A stretch of 64,000 nt of DNA from Pedobacter cryoconitis (GTDB lineage Bacteria > Bacteroidota > Bacteroidia > Sphingobacteriales > Sphingobacteriaceae): assembly GCA_019352875.1 (NCBI GenBank), contig JAAAFW010000006.1:1146284-1210283 (forward strand). The letters are read 5' to 3'. The notes under the pieces were generated by a model. It made no database searches and was not told the origin of the DNA. It saw nothing but the letters and a program-made list of their open reading frames with translations. This document shows, piece by piece, positions 2,056-11,356 of this stretch. How positions within the stretch are numbered: position 1 is the first letter of the stretch; every line of letters starts with the position of its first letter. The position numbers and the translations under genes were made by a program.

Positions 2056-3339
2056 CTAAATCTCCTGATGTTCCTTGTCCTGTATTTCTGTTAAATTCAG
2101 GCCGAGAAGACTTTTGGTTTTTGTATAGGTAATTCCGGCGACCAGGATCGTCATACAGCCGCCAAAAACTACTGCTGGTACCGTTCGCATCAGTTTGGCA
2201 GTTAATCCCGACTCAAATGCCCCAATCTCATTTGAGGAGCCGATAAACATGCTATTTACTGCAGAAACCCTGCCCCGCATTTCATCCGGGGTAAGGAGCT
2301 GCATAATAGTAGAGCGAATCAGTACACTGATACTGTCAAAGGCGCCTTCCATGAAAAGGAAAACCAGTGTCAGGTAGAAATTCTTCGAAAGTCCATAGCA
2401 GATAATACTGGTGCCGAATCCGGCAACTGCGATCAGTAAATTCCTCCAGGGGCGGTTCATAGGGCTAATGCGGGTCATGGCTAACATAGTCAGCACTGCA
2501 CCCGAAGAAGCAGCCGCACGCATAAAACCAAGGCCTTCAGATCCAACTTTAAGGATGTCATTTGCGAAGACCGGCAGCAGGGCAACTGCACCACCGAAAA
2601 ATACAGAGAACAGGTCCAGGCTCATTGCGCCGAGCATGATTTTGTTCTTAAATACAAATTTAACACCTTCAGTAAGGCTGGTCACAATATCTTCTTTAGG
2701 TATAAAGCGCGGTGGGTGTTTACGTAGAAAAAAGATACAGACCAGGGCTACAGTTATAAAAAAGAGGATGACACTATAGGTGACGGTAATACCAAAAAAT
2801 CCATAGATCAATCCACCTACCGCCGGCCCCACAATAGAGGCTGTCATATAGGCTGAACTGTTCCAGGTACTGGAATTCGGATAGAGTTCCTTTGGAATAA
2901 TCTGTGCCATGATGGAGAAGGTCGCAGGGCTGAAAAAACCTCGGGCGATACCGATTCCGAAGACCATCGTATACATGATCGGGATAATATAGCTCACCGG
3001 AACGAAACGGTGCATATACGTCGTTGTGGCTATCAGCATGATCAGACTGCAGAGGAAAACTCCGGCAAAGATCTTAAACAGCAATGCTCTCTTTTCCGAT
3101 TTATCCGCAACATATCCGCCATAAAGGGCAATACTAATTGCAGGAATTGCCTCACAAAGACCTACCAGCCCCAGTGCCAGTGGGTCTTTTGTTAAATGGT
3201 AGATATGAAATCCGATAATAACGGCTTGCATCTGGTAAGCGAAGGTAAAGAAGAAACGCATACCAAGGTAAGATCTGAATTCCCTGAAACGCAGGGCAGC
3301 ATAAGGATCTTTTATATTGGGTATCTGGGGATTGTCCAA
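2056..3339 (-). CDS. MFS transporter, EntS/MFS_3-like exporter
   Basis: A 12-helix major facilitator protein of about 427 residues, resembling the EntS-type (MFS_3) exporters. It has the loop 2-3 signature (YGGYVADKSEKRALL), a long middle loop and a second half with a cytoplasmic MRGRVSAVNSMFIGSSNEIGA segment typical of this group. The substrate cannot be told. The frame extends to a TTG at 3357, but that codon is inside a consensus promoter -7 element (3355-3362), so transcription should begin near 3349. The TTG at 3337-3339 is therefore preferred. It follows the ThiE-like gene on the same strand but has its own promoter. A role in thiamine uptake is not indicated. Confidence 0.8.
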   Translation of the reverse strand: MDNPQIPNIKDPYAALRFREFRSYLGMRFFFTFAYQMQAVIIGFHIYHLTKDPLALGLVGLCEAIPAISIALYGGYVADKSEKRALLFKIFAGVFLCSLIMLIATTTYMHRFVPVSYIIPIMYTMVFGIGIARGFFSPATFSIMAQIIPKELYPNSSTWNSSAYMTASIVGPAVGGLIYGFFGITVTYSVILFFITVALVCIFFLRKHPPRFIPKEDIVTSLTEGVKFVFKNKIMLGAMSLDLFSVFFGGAVALLPVFANDILKVGSEGLGFMRAAASSGAVLTMLAMTRISPMNRPWRNLLIAVAGFGTSIICYGLSKNFYLTLVFLFMEGAFDSISVLIRSTIMQLLTPDEMRGRVSAVNSMFIGSSNEIGAFESGLTAKLMRTVPAVVFGGCMTILVAGITYTKTKSLLGLNLTEIQDKEHQEI

Positions 3340-3354
3340 TGGTGTTTTTTTGAA

Positions 3355-3384
3355 CAAATGTAATAGTTACTCGCTTTTTTACAA
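3355..3384 (-). promoter_or_regulatory. Bacteroidetes-type promoter for the MFS gene
   Basis: On the minus strand, TTG (3382-3384), exactly 19 nt, then TACATTTG (3355-3362). This is a full match to the Bacteroidetes sigma-A promoter layout. It overlaps the upstream-most possible start codon of the MFS gene, which decides the start in favour of 3339. Confidence 0.7.
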
Positions 3385-3401: not shown

Positions 3402-4034
3402 TTACCGTAGCTGTGCATAAAATTCACGATAAGCCTCACCCATATCTTCTGCCTGGTTTATCGCAGAAGATGCAGCGATTCCAAATACTCCGGTATCGAT
3501 CAAAGCGACGATATCTGCTGCGGTAATTCCACCGACTGCAATTATAGGTACGTTAGGCAAATGCGTATTCACTTCCTCCATCAGACTACTGAATCCTGCA
3601 GTGCCCAGCGGCATCAGGTCAGTTACTTTGGTTGTACTGGTTTTGAACGGTCCACAGCCAATATAATCTGCTCCGGCAGCGGCCAGCCGGATCGCATCTG
3701 CTGCGGTGTGTGCTGTGCCGCCAACGGTGAATTCTTCTCCCAGCTGTTCCTTGATAGCTTTGATAGGAGCATTTGTGTCTTCCAGATGAAAACCTTGTAT
3801 GTCGGCTAGTTTACTCAGGTGTATATGCTCGGTGACGATCAGTGTGGCGCCCCAGTCGTCGCAGATCTCTGCTATCGGGATAATATCGGCAAGCAGTTCC
3901 TGATCGTTTTTAGTCAGGCAGCGGTATTGTATCCATTTGGCACCAGATTCGCAAGCTATTCTTGCCTGATCGATATGGCTCAGTCCGGGTATATCGTGTG
4001 TAATGAAATGCAGTTTTTCTATATATTTTTTCAA
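3402..4034 (-). CDS. thiE: ThiE/TenI-family protein, probable thiamine phosphate synthase
   Basis: 210 residues with a TIM-barrel ThiE layout: WIQYR (34-38), GFHLEDTN (81-88), GGTAHT (105-110), GCGPFKTSTTK (126-136) and VGGI near the C-terminus. ThiE joins HMP-PP with thiazole phosphate to give thiamine phosphate. The phosphate-binding loops and the TSTTK segment are well kept. The Mg2+/diphosphate region is unusual: canonical enzymes read HLG(Q/K)xD after the barrel strand, while here it is HLEDTN, and the preceding acidic pair is TEH. It may be a divergent ThiE or a TenI-like paralogue. The start is TTG (MKKYIEK). It lies downstream of the TPP-riboswitch-controlled receptor, with a terminator-like hairpin between them. 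Confidence 0.72.
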   Translation of the reverse strand: MKKYIEKLHFITHDIPGLSHIDQARIACESGAKWIQYRCLTKNDQELLADIIPIAEICDDWGATLIVTEHIHLSKLADIQGFHLEDTNAPIKAIKEQLGEEFTVGGTAHTAADAIRLAAAGADYIGCGPFKTSTTKVTDLMPLGTAGFSSLMEEVNTHLPNVPIIAVGGITAADIVALIDTGVFGIAASSAINQAEDMGEAYREFYAQLR

Positions 4035-4163: not shown

Positions 4164-6611
4164 TTAGAATCTCACATTCAGGGACAACAGGAAGTTGGTG
4201 CCAGCCTGTGGGAAATAGAAGTTCTCTGACAAACGGCTGCCGTCACTGACATAGCCGTAGGTATAACCGTTACTTTCATATTTCTTATTCAGGATATTGT
4301 TGGCCAGCAGGCCTACATTTATATTTTTAACACCTTTTATACTGAAATCATAACCCAGACGTACATTATTAACCCAGTAACCATTCAGTTTACGTTCCTC
4401 GCTTTGCGTATTATCCATGTATTGTTTACTCACATATTTACTTTGCAGTGCAACAGCGAAAGATTTTACCGGTTTAAATACCAATTCTCCGAACAGGACA
4501 GCAGAAGGCGAGAAAGAGATATTGGTATTTTTATAAGTATTCATCTCTTCCAGTTCTGAATCGTAGTTCATGATATATTCAGAAAATTCCTTGATTTTAT
4601 TTCTGCTTAACGCCGCATTCGCATTGACCATGAAGAATCTGCTGAGCGTATATGACCCGTCCAGCTCAACACCCATACGGTAACTGTCGGGTACATTCTG
4701 ACGGATATTTCCACCCACATCATTCAGCTTTCCTGTAACAACCAGCTGATCTTTATAGAACATTCCATAAACATTTAACCCTGCATTGAATGCCGACCTC
4801 TGAATCCTGTATCCAGCTTCCAGATCATAAAGTCTTTCTGCCTGAGGTAAGGTGTTTTTGACAGCATCTACGTAATCTGTACGGTTAGCCTCTTTATTAG
4901 CAATACTCATCGATGCATAGATATTGCTTCCCGGATCAAGCGTATAGGTCGCACCGACTTTCGGATTGAAGAAGTGCAGCTTGTCATGAATGTCAAGTGG
5001 TTTCTGATCATTGTCCTTACCCGTAATATCATACTTAATACCTCTGTATTGCAGGTCTGCGAAAAGGCTAAGCTGGTCTGCCGGGTTAAATGTGATTTTA
5101 CCGAAGATATTAAAGTCATCTTTATTACCGCGTCCGTCATAATAATGATCGCTGTTATTTAGTGTGGAAGCAACCTGCGACCAGATGATCTGTCCGTAAT
5201 GTTTACCTCTGTATTCGTTGTACCCACCACCCAGCGTCAGATTTAAGTTATCGAGTGCCTTGTAATTGAAAGCGTAGGTAACACCATAGAAATCATTGTT
5301 TAGCCATCTTCTGCGTATAAGGTCAGATTTCAGTACCTCTGCGCCATTGATTACCGGGTTAGGCAACGCATAATCACTAAATTTCTGAAGGTTCTTGAAC
5401 TCTTCATAATAACCCCTTCCGTAAGTATAATGCAAGGCGCCGTTAAATGAGAAACGAGGGTTGAATTGTTTGGCATAAAGTAATTGGTAGTGATCTTGCC
5501 AATAATTATCGGTCTGGTCTTTATAAGTAAAAGAGTTGTATTTACGGCTGTCTGAATTTAATAAGTTGGCTGCATCGGCCTCATTAAGGCCATTTCTGCT
5601 GATATAATCCAGCATACCCTGCTGATCATTCCGCAGTCGGGATTCCGGCACGCCGTTCCAGGATTGGTAAGTTCTTTCCGTACCGGAGAAGACATTCAGG
5701 CGAAGTAGATCCGTTTTACCATGGTACGCACCTGACAGGAAATAGGATTTGAGTAAAGAGGCGCCGCGGTCTACGAAACCATCAGATTGAATACGTGATA
5801 AACGACCGTCAAAGCTGAATTTATTGTCAATCAGTCCGGTTCCTATTTTTACCGTGTTTTTCAGTGTATTAAAAGATCCGTAACTTGTATTTACTTCTGC
5901 ATAAGGATCAAGAGAGGGAGCTGAGGTCTGAATATTCAGACTTCCACCGAAGGCTCCTGCTCCGTTTGTAGAGGTACCCACACCACGTTGAATCTGAATG
6001 TTCTCCACAGAGGAAGCAAAATCGGGCATGTTTACGAAAAAGGAGCCCTGGCTTTCACTGTCGTTGTATGGAATCCCATTGACTGTGACATTCACTCTGG
6101 AACCATCGCTTCCCCGGATCCGGATCCCGGTATAACCGACACCGGCACCGGCATCTGAAGTGACCACTACACCGGGTGTATTGTTAATAATAAACGGTAA
6201 GTCCTGACCGAAGTTATTTGCTGCGATCTCAGACTTGCTCACGTTTTTATAAGTAGAGGCCGATTTTTCAGCTGCACGGGTAGCCATTACAATAACTTCA
6301 TCGGCGAGATAGGCCGAAGGCGTGAGGCTAAAGTCGAGATTCAGATCTTGTTTTAGCTCAATTGTTTTTTCCAGAGGTTCGTAACCTACAAAGCTGATCA
6401 CAAGGGTGTAGGTTCCGGCTTTCTGCTTCAATTCGTAACTCCCTGCTGAATTGGTATTGGTACCGCCATTGCTGTTCTTCAGCCTGACACTGGCGCCGGA
6501 AAGGGCAGTGTTATTTGTCTTTTCAGATACCTTACCCGAAATTTTGAATTGAGCCAAAAGGCACAGCGGAGAAAGCATTGCTGCAAACACCACTATCAGT
6601 AACTTTTTCAA
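4164..6611 (-). CDS. TonB-dependent outer-membrane receptor under TPP riboswitch control
   Basis: 815 residues. A signal peptide (about 1-21) is followed by a carboxypeptidase-regulatory-like beta domain (about 22-100), the plug domain (about 115-225, with TPGVVVTSD, IRIRGSDG and QRGVGTSTNGAGAFGG) and a 22-strand barrel ending in NFLLSLNVRF, with the terminal aromatic residue needed for outer-membrane insertion. It imports a ligand using TonB/proton-motive energy. A TPP riboswitch lies directly upstream (6680-6808), so the ligand is probably thiamine or a precursor. This agrees with published comparative genomics of THI elements, which assigned riboswitch-linked outer-membrane receptors in Bacteroidetes to thiamine. 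The start is TTG (MKKLLIV), chosen for the signal peptide. An ATG at codon 12 would cut into it. Confidence 0.88.
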   Translation of the reverse strand: MKKLLIVVFAAMLSPLCLLAQFKISGKVSEKTNNTALSGASVRLKNSNGGTNTNSAGSYELKQKAGTYTLVISFVGYEPLEKTIELKQDLNLDFSLTPSAYLADEVIVMATRAAEKSASTYKNVSKSEIAANNFGQDLPFIINNTPGVVVTSDAGAGVGYTGIRIRGSDGSRVNVTVNGIPYNDSESQGSFFVNMPDFASSVENIQIQRGVGTSTNGAGAFGGSLNIQTSAPSLDPYAEVNTSYGSFNTLKNTVKIGTGLIDNKFSFDGRLSRIQSDGFVDRGASLLKSYFLSGAYHGKTDLLRLNVFSGTERTYQSWNGVPESRLRNDQQGMLDYISRNGLNEADAANLLNSDSRKYNSFTYKDQTDNYWQDHYQLLYAKQFNPRFSFNGALHYTYGRGYYEEFKNLQKFSDYALPNPVINGAEVLKSDLIRRRWLNNDFYGVTYAFNYKALDNLNLTLGGGYNEYRGKHYGQIIWSQVASTLNNSDHYYDGRGNKDDFNIFGKITFNPADQLSLFADLQYRGIKYDITGKDNDQKPLDIHDKLHFFNPKVGATYTLDPGSNIYASMSIANKEANRTDYVDAVKNTLPQAERLYDLEAGYRIQRSAFNAGLNVYGMFYKDQLVVTGKLNDVGGNIRQNVPDSYRMGVELDGSYTLSRFFMVNANAALSRNKIKEFSEYIMNYDSELEEMNTYKNTNISFSPSAVLFGELVFKPVKSFAVALQSKYVSKQYMDNTQSEERKLNGYWVNNVRLGYDFSIKGVKNINVGLLANNILNKKYESNGYTYGYVSDGSRLSENFYFPQAGTNFLLSLNVRF

Positions 6612-6679
6612 TTTTTTGTTCTTTTTTAGTAAAACCTGCTGTAAATAGGGGCACTTACAGTTTAGTTAAACTCCATAAC

Positions 6680-6808
6680 TCCAATCCCTCCGCCGGCATT
6701 ACCCGGATCAGGTGCATATTTGTAGCTATACCAGGGTATAGTTTTCAAATAATGGGTATGATCTCAGCCTGTCTTTGTGTTTCCTAAAAAAACAAGGCAC
6801 CCCTTTTG
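6680..6808 (-). ncRNA. TPP riboswitch (THI element)
   Basis: Read on the minus strand, the conserved blocks occur in order: GGGGTGCC (6796-6803), GGCTGAGATCATACCC, GCACCTGATCCGGGTAAT and GCCGGCGGAGGGA, ending near 6685. These match the thiamine pyrophosphate aptamer: the CTGAGA thi-box in the pyrimidine-sensor arm, and the CCTGATC...GCGGAGGGA pyrophosphate arm. About 70 nt separate it from the TTG start of the TonB receptor. That spacer holds a small CTGTAA/TTACAG hairpin that may be part of the expression platform. No strong terminator was seen there, so control may be translational. Confidence 0.95.
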
Positions 6809-6815
6809 ATATCGG

Positions 6816-6823
6816 CAAATGTA
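6816..6823 (-). promoter_or_regulatory. -7 element of the riboswitch/receptor transcript
   Basis: TACATTTG on the minus strand sits about 13 nt before the riboswitch's first conserved base, placing the RNA start near 6811. No clear -33 TTG was seen. It lies between the kinase stop and the riboswitch, so the receptor has a transcript separate from pnuC and the kinase. Confidence 0.6.
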
Positions 6824-6835
6824 TAAATAATTATT

Positions 6836-7360
6836 TTAGCTTTCTGCGAGGAATTCCTCTACGACCTCAATTGCATTTTGCAAACGGTTTTCTATTCCGC
6901 TGATGACTACATAACGTGCATCAAGTGCCTGCAGCTCTTTATGCCATATGTTCATAAAATGGTTCCTCTTTCCAGGGAAATTTCGCAAAGGATCATCCTC
7001 CCACGGCAGATCAATATCCATGAGCAGGTAGAGGTCATATTTTCTTTCCGGTAAGGTTTCCAATACAATTTTGGGAGTTTCTCCCAGTGTTGCGTCACTC
7101 CAGATCTTCACTGTCAAAAAAGTGGTGTCACAGAATATAAAGTCTTTTTGGGCTAGAGCTAATACAGAATCTTCTAGTGCAAGCTGCCCGTAGAACATAT
7201 TCTCTTCATCCTGAAGGGTGCAGGGGCCTTGGAGGGCAGCACAATAATACCGCGCATATTCCGAAACCCAGTGCGTACGGTAGTGTCTGGCCAGTAGTGT
7301 GGTGATGGTAGATTTGCCCGTACTTTCCGGGCCGACTACAGCGATCTTCCTGATATGCAT
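6836..7360 (-). CDS. NadR-type ribosylnicotinamide kinase-like ATPase
   Basis: 174 residues, the length of the stand-alone kinase domain of NadR. The Walker A loop is GPESTGKST (10-18). CDTTFLTVKIWS (about residues 76-87) and DLPWEDDPLRNFP (lid region) are typical of NadR kinase domains, which phosphorylate nicotinamide riboside to NMN. The adenylyltransferase domain of full NadR is absent. It starts 10 nt after pnuC ends, so the two form an operon: import followed by phosphorylation traps the vitamin. Because a TPP riboswitch and a receptor follow, the substrate could instead be thiamine. The sequence alone does not settle this. Confidence 0.8.
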   Translation of the reverse strand: MHIRKIAVVGPESTGKSTITTLLARHYRTHWVSEYARYYCAALQGPCTLQDEENMFYGQLALEDSVLALAQKDFIFCDTTFLTVKIWSDATLGETPKIVLETLPERKYDLYLLMDIDLPWEDDPLRNFPGKRNHFMNIWHKELQALDARYVVISGIENRLQNAIEVVEEFLAES

Positions 7361-7370
7361 AGTATTAATT

Positions 7371-8021
7371 TTATTGGGTTTCCGGGGTAGGCTCCGGGTT
7401 TTCCTGCTGCAAAAGAAATGATTTTTTCCATTGGATGTATCCCATCCAGGCTATTCCTATGTAAATCAGATACATAAAAGCTGTAGCATATAGCTCCCTG
7501 GAAAGATATACGCCAGTATAAAGGATGTCCACAGCTACCCAGATTAGCCAGTTCTGTAATACACGTCTGGCAAGCAACCATTGCGCAACCAGACTGCAGC
7601 CGGTACAGAAACTATCCATAAAGGGTAGTTTTGCATCTGTATGTGTCTTTAATAAATAGCCGGCAATCAGGGTAAAGGCCAGAACTGCCAGCACCGAAAA
7701 CCTGATATCTCTGTTGCTGATCTGATGGACAGGCATACTTTTGTCTCCGTCATTTCTCTTCTTCAGCCAGAAATACCAACCGTAAATATTCATCAGCAGA
7801 AAATAAAACTGCAGACCCATATCAGCATATAGTTTGCTACGGAAGCAGATAAATATGTAAATACTAACGCTGATGATAGCGAAAGGCCAGTTGAGTAAAT
7901 GATTTCTGGCCGCCAGCCAAACACAGATCAGGCCAGTGATGACACCACATCCCTCCAGCCAGCCGGTATGTTTTAAGAATACAACCGTACCGTGCATTAT
8001 AGAGTCCCAGGTAATCAGCAT
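7371..8021 (-). CDS. PnuC-family vitamin transporter (nicotinamide riboside or thiamine)
   Basis: About 216 residues, with seven or eight hydrophobic helices and the family segment NIYGWYFWL after LQFYFLLM. PnuC proteins carry vitamin nucleosides across the inner membrane by facilitated diffusion and depend on a kinase for trapping. The kinase gene follows after 10 nt. The frame is open to 8108, but an intrinsic terminator (8058-8094) and a -7 element TACATTTG (8025-8032) lie inside that extension, so the ATG at 8019-8021, or the one at 7995-7997, is the real start. Members called PnuT in Bacteroidetes are thought to carry thiamine, and the riboswitch neighbourhood makes that plausible here. 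Confidence 0.82.
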   Translation of the reverse strand: MLITWDSIMHGTVVFLKHTGWLEGCGVITGLICVWLAARNHLLNWPFAIISVSIYIFICFRSKLYADMGLQFYFLLMNIYGWYFWLKKRNDGDKSMPVHQISNRDIRFSVLAVLAFTLIAGYLLKTHTDAKLPFMDSFCTGCSLVAQWLLARRVLQNWLIWVAVDILYTGVYLSRELYATAFMYLIYIGIAWMGYIQWKKSFLLQQENPEPTPETQ

Positions 8022-8024
8022 AGT

Positions 8025-8032
8025 CAAATGTA
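8025..8032 (-). promoter_or_regulatory. -7 element for pnuC-kinase
   Basis: TACATTTG on the minus strand, 3 nt before the ATG at 8021. A TTG lies 24 nt upstream (8057-8059), slightly long. It implies a leaderless or very short leader for pnuC. Confidence 0.5.
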
Positions 8033-8057: not shown

Positions 8058-8094
8058 AAAAAAATCCGGCAGGACATGAACGTACCTGCCGGAT
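8058..8094 (-). terminator. intrinsic terminator of an unassigned minus-strand transcript
   Basis: A perfect 10-bp stem (ATCCGGCAGG with CCTGCCGGAT, 11-nt loop) is followed on the minus strand by seven Ts. No minus-strand gene lies immediately upstream, so it ends an unassigned RNA or protects pnuC from antisense read-through. Confidence 0.75.
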
Positions 8095-8340
8095 AATAAA
8101 CCAAACAAACTATTTATGAAGATTATCCTCCGGGCCGTAGCCGTCGAGGATGTTTTAATTCTAATTTACAGTCGTTGCATTCGGAATTTCGGCTGCTTTC
8201 TTTTGAACTTATATCTACAAAACGACGATTGTTCCGATCTAGTACGGGATAGCTATAAATCTTCAGGGATATTGAAATTCATGACGTTATCATGACTGCG
8301 GCTGTTCATAGCGCGGTTGTCTTAACCCTGAATTGAGACT
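8095..8340 (-). other. gene-free stretch, possible small structured RNA
   Basis: No supported gene between pnuC and the carB promoter. On the minus strand it ends at the terminator 8058-8094. It contains a hairpin at 8125-8151 with a 6-bp outer stem (ATCCTC/GAGGAT) and an inner GGC-TACG-GCC, a UNCG-class tetraloop. A stop-to-stop frame (8123-8278) has no ATG, GTG or TTG, and an 18-codon ATG frame (8253-8309) has no visible translation signal. A short non-coding RNA is possible. It resembles no RNA family I recognise. Confidence 0.3.
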
Positions 8341-8539: not shown

Positions 8540-11356
8540 ATGCCTAAAGACACCTCCATACGTTCCGTATTGATTATTGGATCAGGACCTATTATCATTG
8601 GCCAAGCCTGTGAGTTTGATTACTCCGGCTCCCAGGCTGCGTTATCCCTCAAAGAAGAAGGAATTGAAGTTTCCATTATAAACTCCAATCCGGCTACAAT
8701 TATGACGGATAAGGTAATTGCAGACCATGTTTATCTCAGACCGCTGACGGTAGACTCTATTGAGCAGATTTTAATTGAACGGAATATCGATGCAGTCCTT
8801 CCAACTATGGGTGGACAAACCGCACTGAACCTTTGTAAAGAAGCAGAAGAACGTGGTGTGTGGGAAAAGCACGGTGTAAGAGTAATCGGTGTTGATGTTG
8901 CAGCAATTGAAAAAACTGAGAACAGAGAAGCATTCCGCCAGCTAATGGTAGATATCGGTGTAGGCGTTGCGCCTTCAAAAATCGCTAACTCTTTCCTGGA
9001 AGGTAAAGAAGCTGCACAGCAAATCGGTTATCCGCTGGTTATTCGCCCTTCTTATACACTGGGTGGATCAGGTGGTGGTTTCGTTCACAAGAAAGAAGAA
9101 TTTGATGCCGCGCTAAAACGTGGTCTGGAGGCATCTCCAACACACGAAGTATTGGTTGAGAAAGCTGTATTGGGCTGGAAAGAGTATGAGCTTGAGTTAT
9201 TAAGGGACAGTAATGACAATGTGATCATTATCTGCTCTATTGAAAACTTCGATCCAATGGGTATCCATACAGGAGACTCTATTACGGTTGCTCCGGCGAT
9301 GACGCTTTCTGATACCTGCTATCAGGAAATGCGTAATCAGGCAATTAAAATGATGCGTGCCATTGGTACTTTTGCCGGCGGATGTAACGTACAGTTCTCT
9401 GTTAATCCGGATAATGACGACATAATCGCTATTGAAATTAACCCAAGGGTTTCCCGCTCTTCAGCATTGGCAAGTAAAGCAACTGGTTATCCGATTGCGA
9501 AGATTGCTTCCAAACTGGCTATCGGTTATAACCTGGATGAAATAGAAAATCAGATTACTAAAACCACTTCAGCTTATTTTGAGCCGACGCTGGATTACGT
9601 AATCGTTAAGGTACCGCGCTGGAACTTTGATAAGTTCAAAGGTGCAAATATGGAGCTTGGTCTGCAGATGAAATCTGTAGGAGAGGTAATGGCTATCGGC
9701 CGTACCTTTATTGAAGCTCTTCAGAAAGCTTGTCAGAGTCTTGAAATCGGCCGTGCTGGTTTAGGTGCAGATGGAAAACATAACAGAAGCATCGACGAAA
9801 TTATGTACGGTCTGGAGCATGCAAGCTGGAACCGCTTATTCCTGATCAAAGATGCAATGAGCATGGGGGTTCCATTGGAATCTATCCGCAAAGTGACTAA
9901 AATTGATAAATGGTTTCTGGCACAGATTCAGGAACTTGTTTATCTGGAAACTGAGCTGAAACGTTATTCTCTGAATAATATCCCTAAAGACTTCTTCTTC
10001 AACTTGAAGCAGAAAGGTTTCTCTGATATTCAGATCGCTTACCTGTTGGGTAATGTAACTGAAGATGAGGTTTATGACCGCAGAAAAGCAATGGGTATCA
10101 GCAGGGTTTATAAAATGGTAGATACCTGTGCAGCTGAGTTCCCGGCACAAACCCCATATTTCTACTCGACTTTCGAGCAGGAGAACGAATCTATTCCTAC
10201 AGACAATAAAAAGGTAATTGTATTAGGTTCAGGACCTAACCGTATCGGACAAGGTATTGAATTTGATTATTCTTGTGTCCATGGTTTACTGGCTGCTAAA
10301 GAAAGTGGTTTTGAGGCAATCATGATCAACTGTAACCCGGAGACGGTTTCTACAGATTTCAACATGGCCGATAAGTTATACTTCGAGCCTGTATTCTGGG
10401 AACATGTACGTGAAATCATCGACCTGGAAAAACCAGTTGGTGTAATTGTACAGTTAGGTGGTCAGACTGCGTTGAAAATGGCAGAAAAACTGCATGAGAA
10501 TGGTATCAAAATCATTGGTACGTCTTATAATGATATGGATATCGCAGAAGATCGTGGCCGTTTCTCTGACCTGTTGAAAGAACTGGATATTCCTTATCCG
10601 AAATACGGTGTCGCAGAAAATGCAGAAGAAGCTATTGTTGTTGCAAATGAAGTAGGTTATCCGGTGTTGGTACGTCCAAGTTATGTATTGGGTGGTCAGG
10701 GGATGAGCATTGTAATCAATGATGAGGATCTGGAAAAGGCGGTAGTTAAACTATTGGGAGATCTTCCTGGTAACCGTGTACTGATTGATCACTTCCTGGA
10801 CAGGGCAGAAGAGACAGAGTCTGATTCTATCTGTGACGGAGAAGATGTACACATCGTTGGTTTAATGGAACACATTGAACCAGCAGGTATCCACTCTGGA
10901 GATTCATTTGCGGTATTGCCACCTTTCAGCTTGTCTGAAACTGTAATGAACAGTATGGAGACTTATTCTAAGAAAATCGCAAAAGCTTTAAATGTAATCG
11001 GCTTGCTGAACATTCAGTTTGCGGTTAAGGACGAAAAGGTATATGTGATTGAGGCGAATCCAAGAGCTTCCAGAACAGTTCCTTTCATTGCGAAGGCTTA
11101 TGACGTTCCTTACATTAACATTGCTGCAAAAGTGATGCTAGGTGTCAATAAACTGAAAGATTTCACGATCGAACGTAAGCTGGTTGGGTATGCGATTAAA
11201 GAACCTGTATTCTCTTATGATAAATTCCCTGAAGTTCCGAAAGAACTTGGACCAGAGATGAAATCTACAGGAGAGTCGATCCGCTTTATCAAAGATCTGG
11301 AAGACCCTTACTTTAGAAAATTATACACAGATAAATCTATGTATCTGTCTAAATAA
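8540..11356 (+). CDS. carB: carbamoyl-phosphate synthase large subunit, lacking the MGS domain
   Basis: 938 residues. CarB makes carbamoyl phosphate from bicarbonate, glutamine-derived ammonia and two ATP, for pyrimidines and arginine. Both halves begin with the nucleotide-binding strand (SVLIIGSGPIIIGQACEFDYSG at the N-terminus, IVLGSGPNRIGQGIEFDYS near 558) and carry ATP-grasp cores with RPSYTLGGSGGG and RPSYVLGGQGMS. The oligomerisation segment lies between them. The protein stops at LYTDKSMYLSK, right after the second ATP-grasp domain. The roughly 135-residue MGS-like allosteric domain of the E. coli enzyme (about 1073 residues) is missing, so UMP/ornithine control through it is not expected. 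Shortened CarB proteins occur in other Bacteroidota. carA is not in the window. Confidence 0.97.
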   Translation: MPKDTSIRSVLIIGSGPIIIGQACEFDYSGSQAALSLKEEGIEVSIINSNPATIMTDKVIADHVYLRPLTVDSIEQILIERNIDAVLPTMGGQTALNLCKEAEERGVWEKHGVRVIGVDVAAIEKTENREAFRQLMVDIGVGVAPSKIANSFLEGKEAAQQIGYPLVIRPSYTLGGSGGGFVHKKEEFDAALKRGLEASPTHEVLVEKAVLGWKEYELELLRDSNDNVIIICSIENFDPMGIHTGDSITVAPAMTLSDTCYQEMRNQAIKMMRAIGTFAGGCNVQFSVNPDNDDIIAIEINPRVSRSSALASKATGYPIAKIASKLAIGYNLDEIENQITKTTSAYFEPTLDYVIVKVPRWNFDKFKGANMELGLQMKSVGEVMAIGRTFIEALQKACQSLEIGRAGLGADGKHNRSIDEIMYGLEHASWNRLFLIKDAMSMGVPLESIRKVTKIDKWFLAQIQELVYLETELKRYSLNNIPKDFFFNLKQKGFSDIQIAYLLGNVTEDEVYDRRKAMGISRVYKMVDTCAAEFPAQTPYFYSTFEQENESIPTDNKKVIVLGSGPNRIGQGIEFDYSCVHGLLAAKESGFEAIMINCNPETVSTDFNMADKLYFEPVFWEHVREIIDLEKPVGVIVQLGGQTALKMAEKLHENGIKIIGTSYNDMDIAEDRGRFSDLLKELDIPYPKYGVAENAEEAIVVANEVGYPVLVRPSYVLGGQGMSIVINDEDLEKAVVKLLGDLPGNRVLIDHFLDRAEETESDSICDGEDVHIVGLMEHIEPAGIHSGDSFAVLPPFSLSETVMNSMETYSKKIAKALNVIGLLNIQFAVKDEKVYVIEANPRASRTVPFIAKAYDVPYINIAAKVMLGVNKLKDFTIERKLVGYAIKEPVFSYDKFPEVPKELGPEMKSTGESIRFIKDLEDPYFRKLYTDKSMYLSK

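Follow-up and report, generated by a model that had tools for sequence, protein, structure and literature searches.

A NadR-type kinase and a variant TPP aptamer in a candidate thiamine acquisition locus of Pedobacter cryoconitis

In Bacteroides thetaiotaomicron, riboswitches for thiamine pyrophosphate (TPP) are associated with an outer membrane receptor gene, OMthi, and with pnuT-tnr3; PnuT is reported to transport thiamine in Escherichia coli, and the B. thetaiotaomicron transport operons were unchanged by thiamine in RNA sequencing (PMC5613172). In E. coli, TPP orders P1, J2-4, and P4 of the riboswitch into a compact three-way junction, and a model of the apo state has the P5 stem base pairing with a downstream element (PMC11751092). 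An optional aptamer stem, P3a, was recorded at the P2/P3 junction of 552 of 907 sequences (Barrick and Breaker 2007; PMC2258182), while for J2-4 the available portions of published accounts note a small difference alone (PMC6414600) or describe no insert (PMC9495366, PMC11751092). Here, we describe a locus of Pedobacter cryoconitis (genome size, 4.93 Mb) within a stretch of 64,000 nucleotides ("the window"; contig positions 1146284 to 1210283). Its minus strand carries, in order, pnuC, a NadR-type kinase gene, a TPP aptamer, a TonB-dependent receptor gene, a thiE-like gene, and an MFS gene (Table 1). The locus is conserved.

From these features, we infer substrates, direction of control, and platform mechanism as follows. 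The pnuC-kinase pair, judging from sequence comparisons, somewhat more probably handles thiamine than nicotinamide riboside (NR), and the locus would be a two-transcript thiamine acquisition module. One transcript, from a near-leaderless promoter, would supply an inner membrane Pnu transporter and the NadR-type kinase, which would convert incoming thiamine to thiamine monophosphate and thereby trap it; ThiL, encoded elsewhere, would then make TPP. The pair would substitute for the PnuT and thiamine pyrophosphokinase (TPK) pair of other Bacteroidota. A second transcript, beginning with the variant aptamer, would encode the receptor that moves thiamine over the outer membrane, followed by the thiE-like and MFS genes. 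Abundant TPP would close the aptamer and lower receptor expression. Probably no terminator is involved, and the effect would come from a hairpin with a C-run in its loop, which could pair with aptamer G-runs in either the 5′ strand of P2 or the 3′ strand of P4. We give about an even chance to the broader proposal that this whole branch of NadR-type kinases, now assigned to NAD metabolism, supplies the thiamine kinase that much of the Bacteroidota seems to lack, accompanied by Pnu proteins misnamed as NR transporters, and that the uptake genes of this pathway are preceded by a TPP aptamer with a four-way junction, hidden by the Rfam cutoff.

Thiamine is favored because the kinase and TPK replace each other and because the kinase adjoins TPP-receptor units in other families. 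The window's genome encodes ThiL and gave no TPK match with PF04263 (ThiK- and APH-type thiamine kinases were not searched for), so a thiamine kinase would be required for imported thiamine. Among 80 genomes, TPK was found in 13 and the kinase family in 71: all 67 genomes without TPK carried the kinase, all 9 without the kinase carried TPK, and 4 carried both (Fisher p = 3e-9, a value inflated by the 54 genomes that are congeners, from the series G001 to G056, or were reached via pnuC loci, from G060 to G098). When only the 26 class and family genomes were counted, those with TPK divided into four with and four without the kinase, and those lacking TPK into 18 and 0 (p = 0.0047); the same sample counted by genus gave 0 and 3 with TPK and 17 and 0 without (p = 0.0009). 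The 80 genomes, taken from 216 known ones, comprised 24 of the 25 class genomes (G209 was left out), 2 family members from other genera, 20 members of the genus, and 34 reached via pnuC loci; class-survey genomes marked as belonging to the same phylum were left out of the TPK and kinase searches. TPK was sought by PF04263 only and the kinase by one sequence at an E value of 0.001.

Gene order tells a similar story. TPK follows pnuT directly or within 0.8 kb in all 11 TPP-receptor-pnuT loci, and a tblastn search with one TPK query did not find TPK in the pnuC-kinase loci. There, the NadR-type kinase occupies the TPK slot behind the Pnu transporter and is the predicted thiamine-phosphorylating partner. 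We take the product of tnr3 in B. thetaiotaomicron to be a TPK. In 21 of 26 relative loci (L009 to L034; 18 by a strict pattern), the kinase is followed on the same strand by a TPP element and receptor, an arrangement that recurs in other families, where 7 of the 20 kinase loci show it (5 in family f4 and 1 each in f5 and f9). The f4 linkage passes an ArfB-like ribosome rescue gene (L195:4389-4790 and equivalents; one copy scanned), and in two further f4 loci the TPP element and receptor lie about 7 kb from the kinase. Six Sphingobacteriaceae-type genomes (G062 to G065, G069, and G071) have a single TPP match, placed before a receptor gene, together with the kinase and no TPK match. In the Mucilaginibacter loci, no receptor match adjoins the pnuC-kinase pair. 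In some f4 genomes, DUF4301 (PF14134) forms a fusion with the kinase or comes after it (L195:2191-4386 and L214:1558-3111).

The kinase itself lacks the NMN (nicotinamide mononucleotide) adenylyltransferase domain of NadR, and its match to TIGR01526 (95.8 bits against a cutoff of 341) covers the kinase part only. K85, D117, G155, and A163 are kept in three kinase groups and differ from the aligned letters of four distinct NadR sequences, of which only two or three letters were available at positions 155 and 163.

For the transporter, family names are of little help. Both the window pnuC (112.8 bits) and the TPP-controlled pnuT of the same genome (73.5 bits) exceed the TIGR01528 cutoff of 42.45 bits; the name therefore does not discriminate, and we discarded it as evidence for NR. 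The closest named kin of the window pnuC are from Pedobacter. In one tree, the Bacteroidales transporters of pnuC-kinase and TPP-receptor-pnuT loci form a single group (31 rows, support 99), and in a second, 13 of 16 kinase-linked transporters of other families join 10 TPP-controlled pnuT sequences (23 rows, support 100). Because of both groupings, it appears that the kinase repeatedly partners transporters whose close kin are TPP controlled; three separate transporter groups pair with this same kinase family. At L006:8842-7754 and in the pnuT loci among L089 to L104, TPP-controlled pnuT is followed by a conserved flavoprotein gene that resembles acyl-CoA dehydrogenases or monooxygenases (PF08028). 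It has no obvious thiamine role, and NF045629 scored below its cutoff for the L006 copy.

The receptor gene is preceded by an aptamer that standard annotation overlooks: no Rfam match reached the gathering score anywhere in the window. With lax thresholds, RF00059 matched along the whole model (positions 1 to 105) at 6814 to 6668 on the minus strand, with 39.3 bits (E = 1.2e-5 for 2.1 kb) against a gathering cutoff of 54.3 bits, which is a search threshold and not a structural feature. The score falls short because a 40-nucleotide hairpin lies between P2 and P4, in J2/4. The conserved core (P2, P3, CUGAGA, P4, P5, and AGGGA) is present, as seen in the full-length alignment and in the consensus pairs of 26 elements. 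The short J2/4 of 43 parsed elements (3 to 6 nucleotides) was not found in the window aptamer; the 40 nucleotides stand in its place, between the P2 3′ strand (ACCC) and P4 (ACCUGAU). Judged by sequence, this is a structurally variant member of a known riboswitch class, with predicted TPP binding and control. Three TPP elements were found in the genome.

In 103 parsed elements, a non-random set from pnuC-related loci and selected TPP matches in which identical elements were counted once, J2/4 length is bimodal: 43 elements have 3 to 6 nucleotides, 60 have 21 to 98, and none is intermediate. For AACCC elements, parsing assigned one C of P2 to the insert, and 25 of the 60 loci L129 to L188 were unparsed by the strict pattern, all 25 with canonical spacing. 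Closed hairpins, defined as having four or more pairs between the outermost 14 bases on either side, form in 58 of the 60 inserts, the others being L112, whose insert was clipped by the parser, and L114. Folding of the inserts gave a mean z-score of −3.8 against dinucleotide shuffles, and each insert's own arms paired better than arms swapped among elements, with swaps doing equally well in a median fraction of 0.017.

An alignment of 26 elements chosen from the 60 inserted rows (inserts of 21 to 42 nucleotides; row L062 is misaligned at its 5′ end) gave RNAalifold enough to recover the J2/4 helix unaided. Pairing held in 96.8% of the helix cells, compared with 53.3% in shuffles; 59 cells had changed on both sides, against a shuffle mean of 16.4; and the covariation score was 1.047, against 0.221. 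None of 500 shuffles was as high for pairing, two-sided changes, or covariation score, and shifting the helix partner dropped pairing to 19 to 60%. We hold with high confidence that the helix is real, and we propose that it adds a fourth arm to the three-way junction, its sequence being free while the helix is kept. The insert is not the known P3a stem: in all 65 elements parsed without requiring ACCC, this motif lies no more than a few bases from CUGAGA and precedes the insert. Short, weak RF00059 matches in the genus (62 to 75 nucleotides) were considered as truncated aptamers, an idea that we rejected, as those fetched proved complete and carried long J2/4 inserts, mostly the 3′ half of each element having been reported by the search. 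The long inserts of L093, L096, and L110 contain short purine-rich or AAGTT-like repeats and form imperfect hairpins.

All 60 inserted elements stand before uptake genes (51 receptors and 9 pnuT), and the insert was found in none of the 22 elements before other genes (9 thiC, 9 methyltransferase-like, 2 thiS, 1 thiD, and 1 thiM). Another 21 receptor elements are canonical, with no insert, and the pnuT element of the window's genome (L006), canonical and compact and unparsed by the strict pattern, is an exception among pnuT elements. Inserts occur in Pedobacter, Mucilaginibacter, Daejeonella, Membranihabitans, Ancylomarina, and relatives. Every inserted element whose score was checked lies below 54.3 bits (39.3 in the window, L119 53.1, L055 50.2, L154 52.7, L155 41.8, L164 37.7, and L166 32.0). 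Among 60 genus genomes, 59 have a TPP match and 45 have one over the Rfam cutoff. Close pairs of TPP matches on one strand were seen at G074:C19:7948-8182 and G159:C4:1534146-1534670. TPP elements precede the methyltransferase-like gene in L120, L128, and L136 to L139, and a gene resembling, by eye, a relative of ThiL or AIR synthase follows in L120 and L128.

How such an aptamer might act on the receptor gene is suggested by the sequence 3′ of it, where no T-run terminator was seen by eye. The predicted loop of a hairpin at this place contains CCC in 37 of the 51 inserted receptor elements, compared with 3 of 21 canonical receptor elements and 2% of letter shuffles. This platform hairpin comes from single-sequence folding; RNAalifold gave only three GGG-CCC pairs 3′ of the aptamer. 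We propose as a model that the C-run might pair with the G-runs of P2 or P4, undoing the aptamer. Start codons behind the 51 inserted receptor elements are TTG in 32, GTG in 4, and ATG in 3, with 12 not read.

The promoter motifs point to two transcripts. The motif TACATTTG, which we take to be the Bacteroidetes −7 element (presumed consensus TAnnTTTG), was found twice, three bases 5′ of the pnuC start (8032 to 8025) and directly 5′ of the aptamer (6823 to 6816). In relatives, a −7 motif lies at most 22 nucleotides from an in-frame start codon in 37 of 45 pnuC loci (L009 to L053; 1.9% in random 22-mers), usually with a gap of 4 nucleotides, and at most 40 nucleotides upstream of 49 of the 51 inserted receptor elements. 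This motif evidence gives good support to two promoters and to the absence of space for a riboswitch ahead of pnuC. Because the motif sits so near the start codon, both here and in relatives, the pnuC mRNA is probably near-leaderless and without a riboswitch. An earlier sequence-only reading of this DNA had already described a TPP aptamer with its own −7 element before the receptor, with pnuC and the kinase upstream on the same strand behind a separate promoter motif and no riboswitch, and the RF00059 match, gene order, and motif positions bear this out. The same reading had ended the region at 8032, which is the first base of the −7 motif and not a gene edge (the pnuC start codon is the ATG at 8021), and it missed that the aptamer is structurally variant. 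The J2/4 hairpin, the score below the cutoff, the second pnuC paralog behind a TPP element, and the lack of a TPK match are points absent from it.

TABLE 1 Features of the locus in the window
Feature	Positions	Strand	Basis
pnuC-type transporter, 216 aa; probable inner membrane thiamine transporter (or NR transporter)	7371..8021	-	PF04973 204 bits; TIGR01528 112.8 bits, cutoff 42.45; 4qtn E 2.3e-15; trees
−7 promoter motif TACATTTG of pnuC	8025..8032	-	Read in sequence; 3 nt 5′ of ATG
Terminator-like hairpin and T run, upstream of pnuC promoter	8058..8093	-	By eye; alike in many Pedobacter loci
NadR-RNK-type kinase, 174 aa, PF13521; proposed thiamine kinase	6836..7360	-	Profile matches; distribution; residues
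−7 promoter motif TACATTTG of receptor transcript	6816..6823	-	Directly 5′ of aptamer
Variant TPP aptamer	6668..6814	-	RF00059 39.3 bits, E 1.2e-5
ACCC, P2 3′ strand, a few bases 3′ of CUGAGA	6754..6757	-	Columns 66-69 pair with 17-20 in 25/26 rows
40-nt J2/4 insert; helix 6751-6746 with 6722-6717; inner hairpin 6741-6736 with 6731-6726	6714..6753	-	Folding and covariation
Hairpin 3′ of aptamer with C-run loop (CCCC 6651-6648); possible expression platform	6639..6660	-	Single-sequence folding
TonB-dependent receptor, TTG start; probable thiamine outer membrane receptor	4164..6611	-	Profile matches, relatives
thiE/tenI-like gene, 3′ of receptor	3402..4034	-	Profile matches, relatives
MFS exporter-like gene, 3′ of thiE-like gene; syntenic in many Pedobacter loci	2056..3357	-	Profile match, relatives

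Beyond these features, carB is divergent and starts at 8540. The sequence TTTGGTTTATTATCCGG..CCGGATTTTTTT at positions 8105 to 8057 on the minus strand, before the pnuC promoter, is terminator-like and alike in many Pedobacter loci.

The choice between thiamine and NR had been left open by the sequence-only reading. Distribution and context favor thiamine; the comparison of binding residues that the reading had named, run here on sequence only, came out even, and several observations weigh against thiamine. Of the positions common to both proven NR transporters, 9 side with the window clade and 9 with the TPP-pnuT clade. The window clade keeps WxxW (W158 and W161, equivalent to W182 and W185 of Neisseria mucosa PnuC) and has a Gln aligned with N. 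mucosa position 171, where E. coli has Met; these N. mucosa positions are presumed binding-site residues. The proven NR transporter PnuC of E. coli comes closest to the window clade by path and identity (34% at best; the placement of the clade relative to the E. coli and N. mucosa proteins has a support of 36 and long branches), and the window pnuC is separate from the 10 TPP-controlled pnuT sequences in the tree. The second paralog, pnuT, stands directly behind another TPP element in this genome and in other members of the genus, so that inner membrane thiamine transport could be covered without the window pnuC, whose pair with the kinase lies outside the riboswitch under its own promoter motif. 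The kinase keeps the motifs of the ribosylnicotinamide kinase (RNK) domain of NadR (Walker A, E..R, DT, and D..R), and NadD and PncC-like genes are present, so that NMN would be usable. Four of the 13 TPK genomes also carry the kinase, in open frames of 733 to 800 amino acids (kinase plus DUF4301 in the one scanned), and in other families, 11 of 20 kinase loci lack a linked TPP element and receptor in the portion that was read. To these are added the ThiK- and APH-type kinases and the uneven sampling mentioned above. Taken in this light, the genes could form an ordinary NR salvage pair, PnuC and a ribosylnicotinamide kinase, that makes NMN for conversion to NAD by PncC and NadD, with adjacency to the receptor being hitchhiking. 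The family names and scores, the residues C33, N44, W161, and Y184 common to E. coli PnuC, N. mucosa PnuC, and the window clade, the nearness of E. coli PnuC, the NadD and PncC-like genes, and the separate promoter motif all fit such a pair. However, the TIGR01528 name is shared by TPP-controlled pnuT, and NR salvage leaves unexplained the replacement of TPK by the kinase, the linkage of the kinase with TPP-receptor units in several families, and the phosphorylation of thiamine in receptor genomes without a TPK match. We consider it unlikely.

A division of labor is distinctly improbable in our estimation: the kinase would serve thiamine or both substrates, the window pnuC clade would carry NR or both, and the TPP-controlled pnuT would be the main thiamine transporter of the genus. 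It would account for the two Pnu paralogs of this genome, the three separate transporter groups paired with one kinase family, and G162, where a kinase-TPP-receptor order is found with no pnu gene among the matched adjoining open reading frames; against it stand the six Sphingobacteriaceae-type genomes with one TPP match before a receptor, in which pnuC is the only candidate seen (PF04973 copies were not searched for there). A different question concerns the riboswitch only. The J2/4 insert could be a passenger, the junction accommodating repeats that form hairpins while sensing and control are unaffected, and its varied length (21 to 98 nucleotides), free sequence, and often purine-rich short repeats, like the insert-free state of 21 receptor elements and of the pnuT element of this genome, would be expected of one. 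We rate this as a serious possibility that falls somewhat short of even, set against the gap in the length distribution, a stem maintained by compensatory change, the confinement of all 60 inserts to elements before uptake genes, and the ordering by TPP of J2-4 together with P1 and P4 in E. coli (PMC11751092).

If thiamine handling by the pair and the variant aptamer are as we propose, a missing step of vitamin B1 salvage would be filled in a large phylum, and the vitamin B3 label of a common gene pair would be corrected. It would also explain why standard annotation misses TPP riboswitches of Sphingobacteriaceae uptake genes (45 versus 59 of the 60 genus genomes) and would offer a natural set of four-way-junction TPP aptamers for studying how the junction couples sensing to control. 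The open-license passages that were searched contain no report of a J2/4 helix or of a NadR-type thiamine kinase; either may have been mentioned earlier elsewhere.

Compared with known systems, the aptamer resembles RF00059 in its conserved P2, CUGAGA, P4-P5 core and AGGGA end and in its place before thiamine uptake genes; it differs in its score below the cutoff and in the extra helix in J2/4, after the P2 3′ strand, whereas P3a belongs to the P2/P3 junction. The kinase shares its four motifs with the ribosylnicotinamide kinase domain of NadR (1lw7, 8x7f, 9x6f, and 6gye) but has no NMN adenylyltransferase domain and, as far as few NadR letters tell, differs at the four residues kept in its own groups. 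The transporter belongs to the same Pfam family as PnuC of E. coli and N. mucosa (4qtn) and has WxxW and other residues in common with them, but the kinase that partners its clade holds the TPK place of related transporter groups. As in OMthi and pnuT-tnr3 of B. thetaiotaomicron, there is a TPP-associated outer membrane receptor and a Pnu-type transporter with a (here predicted) thiamine-phosphorylating partner, called "thiamine pyrophosphorylase" in that account (PMC5613172); the window differs in having a NadR-type kinase as partner and a separate promoter motif, with no riboswitch, for the pair.

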